From positions 148,390 through 212,389 of the forward strand of contig JAJZED010000002.1 of assembly GCA_021805775.1 (NCBI GenBank): a stretch of DNA of 64,000 bases, in the 5' to 3' direction. Under the pieces are notes generated by a model. That model ran no database searches. It worked only from the letters and a program-made list of their open reading frames with translations, and was not told where the DNA came from. Below, piece by piece: positions 10,694 through 18,797 of this stretch (position 1 is the first letter of the stretch; each line of letters starts with the position of its first letter). Made by a program: the position numbers and the translations under genes. The DNA is from a bacterium (GTDB lineage: Bacteria > Vulcanimicrobiota > Vulcanimicrobiia > Vulcanimicrobiales > Vulcanimicrobiaceae).

Positions 10694-12374
10694 GCCATTC
10701 AACCACCGCAGTCGCGTCGTGACCCAAGGCCGGGAGCGCGCGCCCGCTCGCGCGATGTTCAAAGGCATCGGATTCACCGATGACGACCTGAACAAGCCGC
10801 TCGTCGGCATCGCGAACACCTGGACCGAAACGATGCCGTGTGGTTTCCATCTGCGCGCGTTGGCCGAACACGTGAAAGCTGGCGTCCGCGCGGCGGGCGG
10901 AACGCCGATGGAATTCAACACGATCGCGATCAGCGACGGAATAACGATGGGCACCGAAGGCATGAAGGCGTCGCTCGTGTCGCGCGAGGTGATCGCCGAT
11001 TCGATCGAACTCTGCGGACGCGGCTATCTCTTCGACGCAATGATTTCGCTAGTTGGCTGCGACAAGACGATTCCCGGTGCGGCGATGGCCGCCGTGCGTT
11101 TGAACATCCCGCACGTCGTGCTCTACGGCGGCCCGATCGCGCCCGGTCGGCTCGACGGCGTCGATCTTACCATCGTCGATGTTTTCGAAGCAGTCGGTGC
11201 GAACGCGGCTGGCGCCATCGACGATGCGCAACTAAAGCGCGTCGAAGACAACGCGTGCCCCGGCGCCGGCGCATGCGGCGGCCAGTACACCGCCAACACG
11301 ATGGCGATGGCGCTCGAGATGCTCGGGCTATCGCCACTTGGAAGTTCCAGCATCGGCGCGACCGATATGCGCCGCGTGCAAGTGGCGCACGATGCGGGTG
11401 CGCTCGCGATGGATATGTTGCGACGCGACGTACTTCCGAGGTCGCTGCTCACGCGCGAAGCATTCGAAAATGCAATCGCGCTGGTTACCGGCACGGGAGG
11501 CTCGACGAATGCCGTGCTCCATCTGATTGCGATTGCGCGCGAAGCCGGCGTTCCGCTCGATCTACAGGATTTCGATCGCATCAGCCGACGCACGCCCGTG
11601 ATTGCCGATCTGCGCCCCGGCGGAAAGTACGTCGCGCTCGACGTCGATCGCGCGGGCGGAACGGCGCTTATCATCCAGCGCCTCGTCGAAGCGAATCTCG
11701 CTCACGCCGGAACGACGACGATGACGGGCGCGTCGCTCGGCCACGCCGTTTCTGCGGCGATTGAAACGGCAGAACAGCAAGTGATTTCGACGGTCGACGC
11801 GCCCTTCAAGCCACACGGCGGAATCGCGGTACTTCATGGTAACGTCGCCCCTGGGGGCGCCGTGCTGAAGTTCGCGGGTTTCGCGCGCACCTCGCATGCC
11901 GGGCCGGCGCGCGTGTTCGACTGCGAGGAAGATGCGATGCGCGCAATCGTTGAGGGCCGCATCAATCGCGGCGACGTGCTCGTGATTCGCTACGAGGGAC
12001 CGAAAGGCGGCCCCGGCATGCGCGAGATGCTGGGCGTTACCAGTGCGATCTTCGGCGCGGGTCTCGGTGAAGACGTCGCGCTAGTAACCGATGGACGGTT
12101 CAGCGGCGGCACGCGAGGGTTGATGATCGGACACGTCGCCCCCGAAGCGGCCGTTGGCGGCCCCATTGCGGCACTACGTGACGGCGACAAGATCACCATC
12201 GACATCGAATCGCGCCGTATCGACGTCGCCCTCGGAGAATCGGAGGTGCGGCTTCGTTTGCAGAGCTGGTCCGCGCCCGAGCCAAAATACGCCACTGGAG
12301 TGTTTGCAAAATACGTGGCCCTCGTTACCTGCGCAACGGACGGCGCAATCACCGCCACGAAGGGCCTATTATGA
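10686..12374 (+). CDS. ilvD: Dihydroxy-acid dehydratase
   Basis: Iron-sulfur dehydratase, third step of valine/isoleucine synthesis. Cluster and active-site motifs are '[16 protein letters not shown]', '[17 protein letters not shown]' and '[16 protein letters not shown]'. Length 562 from GTG 10686; GGAGG lies at 10674-10679. Overlaps the ilvA stop by 8 bases and the ilvE remnant start by 4 bases. Confidence 0.95.
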
Positions 12375-12697
12375 TTCAAGCCCTCTCAAAAGAGTACGTT
12401 TGGCTCGACGGTGCGATTCACGCTACCGACGTGGTCGCTATTGGGCCGATGACGCACGCGCTCCACTATGGTTCCGCTGTATTTAAGGGGACCCGCGCCT
12501 ACGAAACGCCCAAGGGCTCGGCGATTTTTCGCTTGTGCGACCGCATCGAGCGTTTCTTTCGCTCCTCCGACGTGTATGGCCCGAACGCTCAGTTCTCGCA
12601 CGATGATGCTGTCATGGCCTACCCTTTCGGGGAGGCTAGGGTAAGATTTTTATCCGGCGCGATTCGCCGCCTTGACGGATCGAGATGCATGGGGTAA
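12371..12697 (+). pseudogene. ilvE: Truncated branched-chain aminotransferase
   Basis: Starts at ATG 12371 overlapping the ilvD stop. The first ~78 residues match the N-terminus of fold-type IV aminotransferases: 'MTHALHYGSAVFKGTRAYET' and 'AIFRLCDRIERFF'. Homology stops near 12610, exactly where repeat copy B begins. The last ~30 residues are translated repeat, ending at a TAA (12695-12697) that overlaps the -10 of the next promoter. The PLP lysine and ~220 residues are missing, so it cannot be active. An intact aminotransferase must be elsewhere in the genome. Confidence 0.85.
12602..12677 (+). repeat. Imperfect repeat, copy B, breaking ilvE
   Basis: Contiguous 76-base stretch matching copy A (6321-6431) in the same orientation. 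Shared blocks include CCTTTCGGGGAGGCTAGG, then TAA-A/G-ATTTTTAT and CGGCGCGA. It begins where ilvE homology ends and runs up to the -35 hexamer of the hom-met leader promoter. Same orientation and ~6.3 kb spacing mean the two copies flank the whole ilv operon as direct repeats. Confidence 0.78.
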
Positions 12698-15313: not shown

Positions 15314-16254
15314 CCGAACGTACGATAGCGATCGGCGCACTCGAACTCGACGGCGGGCAGATGCTGCCTGCCGTCGAGCAGCGCGTGGCGATCTACGGCG
15401 ACCCCGCCTGCGGGCAGATCGTGCTCGCGCTCCACGCCCTCACCGGCGACCATCGCGCCGCCGCCTGGTGGCCGGGGCTCGTCGGCGAGGGCGCGCTCTT
15501 CGATCCGCGCTCGTGCTGCGTTATCGGTATCAACATACTCGGCTCGTGTTACGGCTCGACACCGGTTCGCGAGCGCATAACCGTCGCCGATATCGTGCGC
15601 GCGCAGCGACGCGCGCTCGAGGTTCTGGGCATCGAACGCATCGACGTCGCAATCGGTGGTTCGATGGGCGGCATGCAGGCGCTGCAGTGGGCGCACGATG
15701 CCCCCGAACGGATCGGGCGCGCGGTCGCGATCGGCGCGCCCGATCGTACCGGCACGCTGGCGATTGCGCTGAATTCGATCCAGCGCGATGCACTCGCACT
15801 CGACCCGGTTGCAGGGCTCGGGCTCGCGCGCAAAATAGCGATGCTCTCGTATAAAAGCGATGCCTTGCTCTCGCGACGCCACGGACGCCGCCCCGACCGC
15901 AACGGACGGCGATGTTTCGACATCGAGGGGTTCCTCGATCTCCAGGCGGCGCGGATCGTCGAACGCATCGATGCCGCAACGTACGCAACGCTCACCCATG
16001 CGATGGATTCGTTCGATCTCCGCGACGGCGACTGGCCGGAGAACACGCCGCCGCTCACGTTCGTCGGTATTTCGTCAGATACGCTCTTCCCGGCGCGCGA
16101 GATACGCGATGCGGCCGGGCGCATCGCCTGCCGCGGCATCGACGCGCGCTACATCGAGTTCCAAAGCGAGCACGGCCACGATGCCTTTCTCGCCGAGGAT
16201 GCGGCGCTCGCCGAACTACTTATGCGAAATATCTGCGTCGAAGCAACACGCTAG
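15310..16254 (+). CDS. metX: Homoserine O-acetyltransferase (MetX family)
   Basis: Alpha/beta-hydrolase acylating homoserine for methionine synthesis. Nucleophile elbow 'AIGGSMGGMQALQW' near residue 117; catalytic Asp in 'ISSDTLFPAREI'; catalytic His in 'EHGHDAFLAED'. At 314 residues it is shorter than most MetX (350-380), mainly in the cap region. Acetyl versus succinyl specificity cannot be read by eye; metY next door favours acetyl. The GTG start overlaps the metY stop. Confidence 0.9.
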   Translation: MTERTIAIGALELDGGQMLPAVEQRVAIYGDPACGQIVLALHALTGDHRAAAWWPGLVGEGALFDPRSCCVIGINILGSCYGSTPVRERITVADIVRAQRRALEVLGIERIDVAIGGSMGGMQALQWAHDAPERIGRAVAIGAPDRTGTLAIALNSIQRDALALDPVAGLGLARKIAMLSYKSDALLSRRHGRRPDRNGRRCFDIEGFLDLQAARIVERIDAATYATLTHAMDSFDLRDGDWPENTPPLTFVGISSDTLFPAREIRDAAGRIACRGIDARYIEFQSEHGHDAFLAEDAALAELLMRNICVEATR

Positions 16255-16505
16255 GGATTCTGCTGGTTTCCCTTGCTCTGACTCCCCGTCGCGAATACGT
16301 TGTTCCCATACCACGAATACGCGTATCTGGTGAGCACCATCGCCACCGGCAGAAAGATCGCGGTCGTTACAATCTCGATGACTGCTTGTTCGATATGATT
16401 CTTCCAGAGATAACCTGCTTTAAAGGCGGTGAAACTGATGTACGGCAGAGCGAGGATGTTCCATGCTCTGCCCCACGGTAGAATATATCGCTTCGTCTCA
16501 GTCAT
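16251..16505 (-). CDS. Small membrane protein of unknown function
   Basis: 84 residues, 'MTETKRYILPWGRAWNILAL' at the start. One or two hydrophobic helices are visible ('IEIVTTAIFLPVAMVLTRYA'). The tail is polar, ending 'NNVFATGSQSKGNQQNP'. The stop codon overlaps that of convergent metX. GAGGA lies upstream of the ATG at 16503-16505. The frame is open further upstream but that sequence is Arg-rich and shadow-like. No family recognised. Confidence 0.55.
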   Translation of the reverse strand: MTETKRYILPWGRAWNILALPYISFTAFKAGYLWKNHIEQAVIEIVTTAIFLPVAMVLTRYAYSWYGNNVFATGSQSKGNQQNP

Positions 16506-16617: not shown

Positions 16618-17769
16618 TCACCCCACCACGCGTACGCGCTCGCGCATGAAGCACCATAATCTGACCGCCTCCACGGTGATGCGATGTTCGATCGGACGCA
16701 ACGCAGTAGCGAGTTCGCTCTCGCTCCGTCCCTCGCAGGCGAGCGGGCGACGGACGAGCACTTCGCCTCGGTCGGTCTCGGCACTCACGCGGTGAACGCT
16801 CGCGCCGATCCACGGGCTCCCCGCGGCAACCGCATCGCGGACCGCATGAGCTCCGCGAAACGCCGGGATCGAACTTCCGTCGGGAACTGCGACCGAGTCG
16901 GCGCGCGGGTCGTGAGGTAAATAGGCGGGATGTAGATTGAGCAGATCGGGGAAACGCTTCACGAAATGCTCGTCGAGCAAATGCATCCACCCAAGCAGCA
17001 GCACGCCCTCGGGTTCGAAGCGTTCGACGATCTCTCTCAGCCGCGCGTCGTAGCCGGCCCGCGATTCCTCGCCGCGGTTCCAGAGCACTCGCTCGATATT
17101 CCGCACACCGGCGACGCTCGCACGCTCGGCTGCATAGGCCTCGTTTCGATTCACCACCACCGCAGCGAGATCGACGGGAAGCTCGCTGCGCGCGATCGCA
17201 TCGAGCAGCGCCTGCAGATTGCTGCCGTTGCCGGAAGCCATCGCCACGACGCGCGCGCGCGGTTCCCACCAACGCATCGGATCGATGCGCTCCACAACCC
17301 GCGCACAGAGCGCACGTTCGTAAAACCGTTCGAGCTGCACTTCTCCGACCGCAGGAATCAGCGCGCGTTCGTAACCGAGCTCGCGCAAGCGCAGACAGCC
17401 GAGCAACGCGAGGTCACCGCCGATGCCGCTTCCGCGTGCCTCCGCGCTGACGCCGATCGGCCCGAAAATACCGGTGCCCGGGCGCGCCCCCTCGTTGCGC
17501 AACCAGGCATAGCGCAGTCCTTGCGCCGCTAACGAAACGAACGCGCGCCGTTGCCCATCCTGCGTTACGACAAGATTTTTCGCACGAAAGGCCTCGCCGC
17601 TCCAGCCTCCACCGAACGCCATATCGATCCACGCACAGAGCGCATCGTCGCGTTCGCATTCCTCGATCAGAAAACCGCGGGCTGCCAATCGCCCTCGCGC
17701 TGCGGCGGCGGCCGCTTCATCGAACGTATCGCTGCGAAGATCGACGAGTAGGTTGGCGAGAGCCCTCAA
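16618..17769 (-). CDS. purN: GNAT acetyltransferase domain fused to phosphoribosylglycinamide formyltransferase (PurN)
   Basis: Residues ~1-170 look like a GNAT domain, with coenzyme-A loop 'GVSAEARGSGIGG' and 'ALLGCLRLRELGYERAL'. Residues ~178-383 are PurN: 'MASGNGSNLQALLDAI', 'VVVNRNEAYAAERA', 'LLGWMHLLDEHFVKRF', the catalytic Asn-x-His in 'LLNLHPAYLP' and the catalytic Asp in 'SAETDRGEVL'. PurN formylates GAR using 10-formyl-THF. The likely start is TTG at 17767-17769, overlapping the purM stop (TTGA); no ATG fits. Ordinary PurN is ~200 residues, so the N-terminal half is a real extension. Confidence 0.85.
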   Translation of the reverse strand: MRALANLLVDLRSDTFDEAAAAAARGRLAARGFLIEECERDDALCAWIDMAFGGGWSGEAFRAKNLVVTQDGQRRAFVSLAAQGLRYAWLRNEGARPGTGIFGPIGVSAEARGSGIGGDLALLGCLRLRELGYERALIPAVGEVQLERFYERALCARVVERIDPMRWWEPRARVVAMASGNGSNLQALLDAIARSELPVDLAAVVVNRNEAYAAERASVAGVRNIERVLWNRGEESRAGYDARLREIVERFEPEGVLLLGWMHLLDEHFVKRFPDLLNLHPAYLPHDPRADSVAVPDGSSIPAFRGAHAVRDAVAAGSPWIGASVHRVSAETDRGEVLVRRPLACEGRSESELATALRPIEHRITVEAVRLWCFMRERVRVVG

Positions 17770-18797
17770 TCGGAACTGCGCGCCGGGTGAATCGTCACCT
17801 GCGCTTCTTCTCCCGTTCGCGCTTCGATCCAACCGATCGTCTTCGCGCCGGGAACGGCGGCGACGGCGCGCGCCGCATCCTCCACCGGAACGACCAGCGT
17901 GTAGCCGATGCCCATGTTGAGCGTACGATAGCACTCATCGTGCGTGAGTCCGCCGCGGTCGATTAACACCTGTTGAATGGCGGGAACGTGCCAGCGCGAT
18001 TGTTCGAGCACCGCCTTCACCGCAGGCCGCAGCGTGCGCGGGAGATTTTCTAATAATCCGCCCCCGGTAATATGCGCCATCACTTTCACCGAGGCAACTT
18101 TTTGAATCGCACGGACCGCTTCGTAATACGAGGGGTGCTCGGCGAGCAGCGCGTCGGCGTAGGTCGCATCGCCGAACGGTTGCAACCACTCGTCCTGCGG
18201 AATGAGCGCGCGAGCGAGCGAATAGCCGTTGGTGTGCAACCCGACTGCGGGAAGTCCGATCACCGCATCGCCCGGCTCGACGTCGTCGGGGTTGGGAACG
18301 GCAGCTCGGTCGACGACACCGACGATCGTTCCCGCAAGATCGAAATGACCGGGTGCGTAGAGCCCCGGCATTTCGGCGGTCTCGCCACCGAGCAACGCGC
18401 ACCCGTGCGCGCGACAGGCGCTCGCACATCCGCTTACCACCGCTGCGGCGACCTCGGGATCGAGTTTCCCGACTGCATAATAATCGAGAAAGAAGAGCGG
18501 CGAGGCGTTCACCACCAAAATATCGTTCACGCAGTGGTTGACGAGATCGCGCCCAACGCCGTCATAGCGTTGCAGTTCGGCGGCGATAAGAATCTTCGTG
18601 CCGACGCCGTCCGTAGAGGCGACCAACGCTCGCGCCGCATCCCCGGGCATCGCGAAGAGTCCGCCGAAACCACCGATGGCGTCGAGTTGATCGGGATGCT
18701 GCCAACGTCCCAAGACACTGCGATACTGCGCCACAGCGGCGTTCCCGGCGGCAATATCGACGCCGGCGAGCGCGTAGGCATCTTTGCTCTCGCTCAT
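17766..18797 (-). CDS. purM: Phosphoribosylformylglycinamidine cyclo-ligase
   Basis: Closes the imidazole ring (FGAM to AIR, ATP-dependent). N-terminal 'YALAGVDIAAGNAAVAQY'; 'VASTDGVGTKILIA'; 'VNDILVVNASPLFFLDYYA'; 'LLGGETAEMPGLY'; 'HITGGGLLENLPR'. Length 343 is typical. It overlaps the purN fusion downstream by 4 bases. The gene is divergent from pepA across a 100-base spacer. Confidence 0.95.
   Translation of the reverse strand: MSESKDAYALAGVDIAAGNAAVAQYRSVLGRWQHPDQLDAIGGFGGLFAMPGDAARALVASTDGVGTKILIAAELQRYDGVGRDLVNHCVNDILVVNASPLFFLDYYAVGKLDPEVAAAVVSGCASACRAHGCALLGGETAEMPGLYAPGHFDLAGTIVGVVDRAAVPNPDDVEPGDAVIGLPAVGLHTNGYSLARALIPQDEWLQPFGDATYADALLAEHPSYYEAVRAIQKVASVKVMAHITGGGLLENLPRTLRPAVKAVLEQSRWHVPAIQQVLIDRGGLTHDECYRTLNMGIGYTLVVPVEDAARAVAAVPGAKTIGWIEARTGEEAQVTIHPARSSD

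Follow-up and report, generated by a model that had tools for sequence, protein, structure and literature searches.

The minus strand of the window (the whole stretch of 64,000 nucleotides of bacterial DNA that was analysed) carries a gene in which a GNAT acetyltransferase domain is fused in front of PurN, the GAR transformylase. The fusion is a real, family-wide joining of two known protein families, and no report of a GNAT-PurN fusion was found in the open-access papers searched. On balance, and with some reservation, the product was regarded as a bifunctional polypeptide, consisting of PurN and a GNAT domain that was inserted once, probably still acetylates, and is made together with PurN rather than working in the purine pathway. 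The features of the locus are as follows.

16618..17769, minus strand: GNAT-PurN fusion gene, 383 aa, with a TTG start overlapping the purM stop (TTGA)
17766..18797, minus strand: purM, upstream of the fusion gene, with a 4-base overlap
17281..17760, minus strand: GNAT domain, residues 4-163, matching the C-terminal half of tandem GNATs (GlmA 147-307)
17419..17436, minus strand: CoA pyrophosphate loop R112-G-S-G-I-G117
17320..17322, minus strand: Tyr150, aligned with the general-acid Tyr of GlmA (Tyr297); Tyr842 is the RmNag equivalent
16621..17262, minus strand: PurN domain (GAR transformylase), residues about 170-383
16930..16938, minus strand: Asn278 and His280 of the PurN active site (N106 and H108 in E. 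coli)
16771..16773, minus strand: Asp333 of the PurN active site (D144 in E. coli)

Reading frame and distribution of the fusion gene

The preliminary description had placed a GNAT domain and then PurN in one frame. Both domains were present, and 16618-17769 were the gene's own coordinates. On the minus strand, the frame had no stop from 17934 down to the stop at 16618, and the break that might have occurred near 17240 was not there. Homology began at the TTG at 17769. This TTG is likely the start of the gene, because in the relative L002 the open frame reaches just 2 codons further upstream and contains no other start codon there. No conserved internal start codon from which PurN could be made on its own was found; start codons near the junction varied and were absent in several relatives.

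A total of 149 genomes of the phylum, Ca. Eremiobacterota, were compared. In 83 genomes of the window's family (f1), the match covered both domains, a gene being counted as fused when the match started at residue 68 or earlier and ended at residue 333 or later. In four further genomes (G007, G031, G079, and G088), the match crossed the junction partly. The f1 matches, all together, came from 35 genera. For rows marked with one stop, those loci that were read had no stop in the part of the alignment that joins the two domains. The home genome is a draft in 28 contigs, and an error of sequencing or assembly that joined two genes had been named as the alternative to a fusion. This artefact was rejected as extremely improbable, since the same join was found in 83 genomes, including G017 (an f1 genome of 3.5 Mb in a single contig), and the frame was kept within the genus at 77-89% protein identity.

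On plasmids or phages, no record covered 80% of the query, and the rows listed matched the PurN part. Eight f1 genomes without the fusion were tested, and the purM match was likewise absent, so that these assemblies may just lack the locus. In G022, G120, and other f1 genomes, purN and purM were both not found, once in a genome that was 94% complete, which could reflect either missing sequence or loss of purine synthesis.

Two other reading frames of the window were recorded. The small ORF at 16251-16505 (minus strand, 84 aa, MTETKRYILPWGRAW...) is membrane-like and had weak similarity to DUF6814 (E 0.008, below the cut-off). The ORF at 12371-12697 (plus strand, 108 aa) looks by eye like a branched-chain aminotransferase that breaks off after its beginning; it had no Pfam match.

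Identity and active sites of the two domains

The PurN part passed the Pfam family Formyl_trans_N (E 2.3e-25; 89.8 bits vs a gathering score of 26.1) and matched GAR transformylases in the PDB at 2e-20. The catalytic Asn, His, and Asp, described earlier as retained, were Asn278, His280, and Asp333, and this triad was invariant in all 30 homologues. The score against the TIGR00639 equivalog was 122.1 bits in two stretches, below the cut-off of 150.1, which only 3 of 60 relatives passed. The match was split and under the cut-off because of an insertion of about 17 residues after HPAYLP (DPxADxVxxPDG..PAFRG), within the 16771-16938 region. The insertion was also considered as a mark of the fusion; this was rejected, since every aligned PurN from the phylum has it, fused or unfused (L052-L070 among them). 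The PurN assignment therefore rests on superfamily, triad, and operon, not on the TIGR00639 cut-off. The best explanation of the C-terminal half is that it would be the organism's 10-formyl-tetrahydrofolate-dependent GAR transformylase.

Other purine-synthesis enzymes were also searched. No PurT was above the cut-off in 60 relatives, and no second PurN-type match was found in G000. The other TIGR00639 match in G000 spanned model positions 78-188 only and is probably methionyl-tRNA formyltransferase-like. Because PurT was missing above the cut-off and this other match was partial, the fused protein was the only GAR transformylase candidate found, and a second one is presumably absent. The PurH match covered the whole model, just under its cut-off.

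Both Pfam families had been proposed for the protein, and the expectation held for Formyl_trans_N only: the single window sequence scored 16.4 bits against Acetyltransf_1, below the gathering score of 20.7. All of 15 relatives gave an Acetyltransf_1 match with an E of 0.1 or lower, the best being 6.7e-8. A profile built from the alignment of these relatives matched solved GNATs at 9e-8, the best match being GlmA. The three-dimensional structure was modelled from a shallow alignment (window and related-locus proteins) at medium confidence (mean pLDDT 63.6), and its order of strands and helices was that of the GNAT fold. The predicted fold had a Z of 13.6 to 4zm6 and 13.5 to GlmA; tandem GNATs were matched at Z 13 to 13.6. 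Model residues 4-163 superposed on the C-terminal halves of these proteins (GlmA 147-307, RmNag 687-852, 3tt2, and others). The GNAT assignment thus rests on profile and fold, not on the Acetyltransf_1 cut-off.

The sequence RGSGIG at residues 112-117 agrees with the CoA loop consensus R/Q-x-x-G-x-G/A. Among 30 fused homologues, the loop Arg was kept in 27, the final Gly in 28, and the general-acid Tyr in 27. The third loop position was G in 17/30; variation at this position does not appear to be decay after fusion, since it is not always G in unfused GNATs either. Tyr150 corresponds to RmNag Tyr842, the general-acid tyrosine shown by the mutation Y842A (PMC4680927). Judged from these motifs, the acetyltransferase is probably active. 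In place of the sugar-pocket Asp and the Trp next to it, the protein has Pro139-Ala140 (Pro in 24/30), and because of this replacement glucosamine is not expected to be the substrate. Fused and unfused GNATs start with NLLVDL or NMLVDL, which resembles the YNLVCDL-like strand ahead of the second half of the tandem GNATs of families f14 and f15, and the single GNAT is probably the second half of a tandem ancestor.

Origin, selection, and loss of the GNAT domain

In families f2 (4/4 genomes) and f3 (10/14), GNAT and PurN are encoded by two genes, each on a contig of its own. At the f2 loci and most f3 loci examined, purM directly adjoins purN, whereas in f1 the GNAT lies in between; for the f3 loci L056 and L058, the purM end was computed as distant. 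No GNAT match was found in the three near-complete f3 genomes G042, G046, and G052. In the large genomes of f14 and f15 (L072-L077), tandem GNAT proteins were seen, the second half of which follows a YNLVCDL-like strand.

In the GNAT tree, all f1 rows were on one side of a branch (98/97). In the PurN tree, f1 was apart from f2 and f3 (99/96), and the GNAT-less G128 was nested beside L027 (100/94). A single origin is the simplest reading of the two gene trees and the synteny. The most likely course would be one capture of the GNAT at the purM/purN junction, followed by vertical descent. The gene of this GNAT, a presumably acetyl-CoA-dependent enzyme, would have been separate in the ancestor, and would have been inserted once, in frame, in the ancestor of f1. 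In G128, purM runs straight into purN with no GNAT detectable between them, which indicates that the GNAT was lost there. Both trees also grouped f2 (loci L042-L055) with f3, although f2 is labelled as the same order as f1.

Within the home genus, purifying selection acts on the GNAT. Its dN/dS was 0.06-0.21, similar to that of PurN, in all pairs but L005-L006, which had too few synonymous changes. In that pair, the synonymous difference was 0.05 in the GNAT vs 0.22 in PurN; recombination inside the fused gene is possible. Between genera, the GNAT was less conserved than PurN, with identities of 42% and 51%, respectively. The CoA loop and the tyrosine were both gone in G031 and G014, the CoA loop was broken in G032, and the tyrosine was gone in G016; the PurN triad was intact in all four genomes. 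The fusion has been retained across the family for longer than would be expected if it were purely neutral, and the physical link therefore likely brings some benefit.

Role of the GNAT domain and comparison with known systems

In the favoured explanation, the GNAT would probably acetylate an amine on some small molecule or protein, and would be made together with PurN without acting in the purine pathway. The GNAT seems not to be needed for PurN and probably works independently of it.

A tentative alternative is that the GNAT is mainly structural or regulatory, holding the PurN dimer or sensing acetyl-CoA, and that catalysis is not what is selected. The fusion is kept across f1, and G031, G032, G014, and G016 keep the domain despite the lost CoA loop or tyrosine. 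In RmNag, a related GNAT pair, it is the acetyltransferase region that makes the fused enzyme dimerise (PMC4680927). However, most lineages keep both the CoA loop and the general-acid tyrosine, the PurN of G128 stands without a GNAT, and the PurN of f2 and f3 is unfused.

It is unlikely that an intermediate of the purine pathway, or PurN itself, is what the GNAT acts on, with acetylation as a step or switch in purine synthesis. The GNAT is placed in the purM-purN operon of f1, and GAR bears a primary amine. Nevertheless, GAR once acetylated would be expected to lead nowhere, G128 does without the GNAT, and the unfused GNATs of f2 and f3 have aroA, cell-wall, and other genes as neighbours rather than purine genes. 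As a clue to the substrate, these neighbours were of little use: aroA recurred in f2, f3 showed a loose set of cell-wall and other genes, and the context was otherwise inconsistent. It is also quite doubtful that the GNAT binds acetyl-CoA and controls the fused PurN, so that the GAR transformylase step would respond to acetyl-CoA supply. The preliminary description had suggested that the fusion may tie purine synthesis to acetyl-CoA status or to an acetylation step. This link is not favoured, because the sister-family GNATs are unlinked to purine genes and because the GNAT was lost or decayed in some f1 genomes while PurN stayed intact.

All stages of a gene fusion can be seen at this locus, from unfused relatives through a family-wide fusion to decay of the added domain in some lineages and its loss in one. 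The protein is also a well-defined case for studying whether a housekeeping enzyme that captures a domain thereby acquires regulation. If that happened here, acetyl-CoA would be directly linked to purine synthesis.

The PurN domain is like the PurN of E. coli (1c2t) and Symbiobacterium (3auf) in sequence, fold, and Asn-His-Asp active site. The window protein differs from both by the GNAT domain in front and by the extra residues after HPAYLP. For the GNAT, the C-terminal domain of GlmA, the glucosamine N-acetyltransferase of Clostridium acetobutylicum (5kf1 series), gave the best profile match and one of the top fold matches. Its general-acid Tyr is kept in the fused GNAT, where Asp287-Trp288 are replaced by Pro-Ala. 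GlmA is a tandem GNAT, whereas the window protein has one GNAT domain only, fused to PurN. RmNag, a fungal N-acetylglucosaminidase of family GH3 whose GNAT region is a tandem (4zm6, PMC4680927), is likewise a GNAT of the same fold (Z 13.6) fused to an unrelated enzyme. Its sugar-pocket pair (Asp834, then Trp) is missing from the fused GNAT. The GNAT region of RmNag comes after its partner and acts on the partner's sugar, whereas the GNAT here precedes a purine enzyme.
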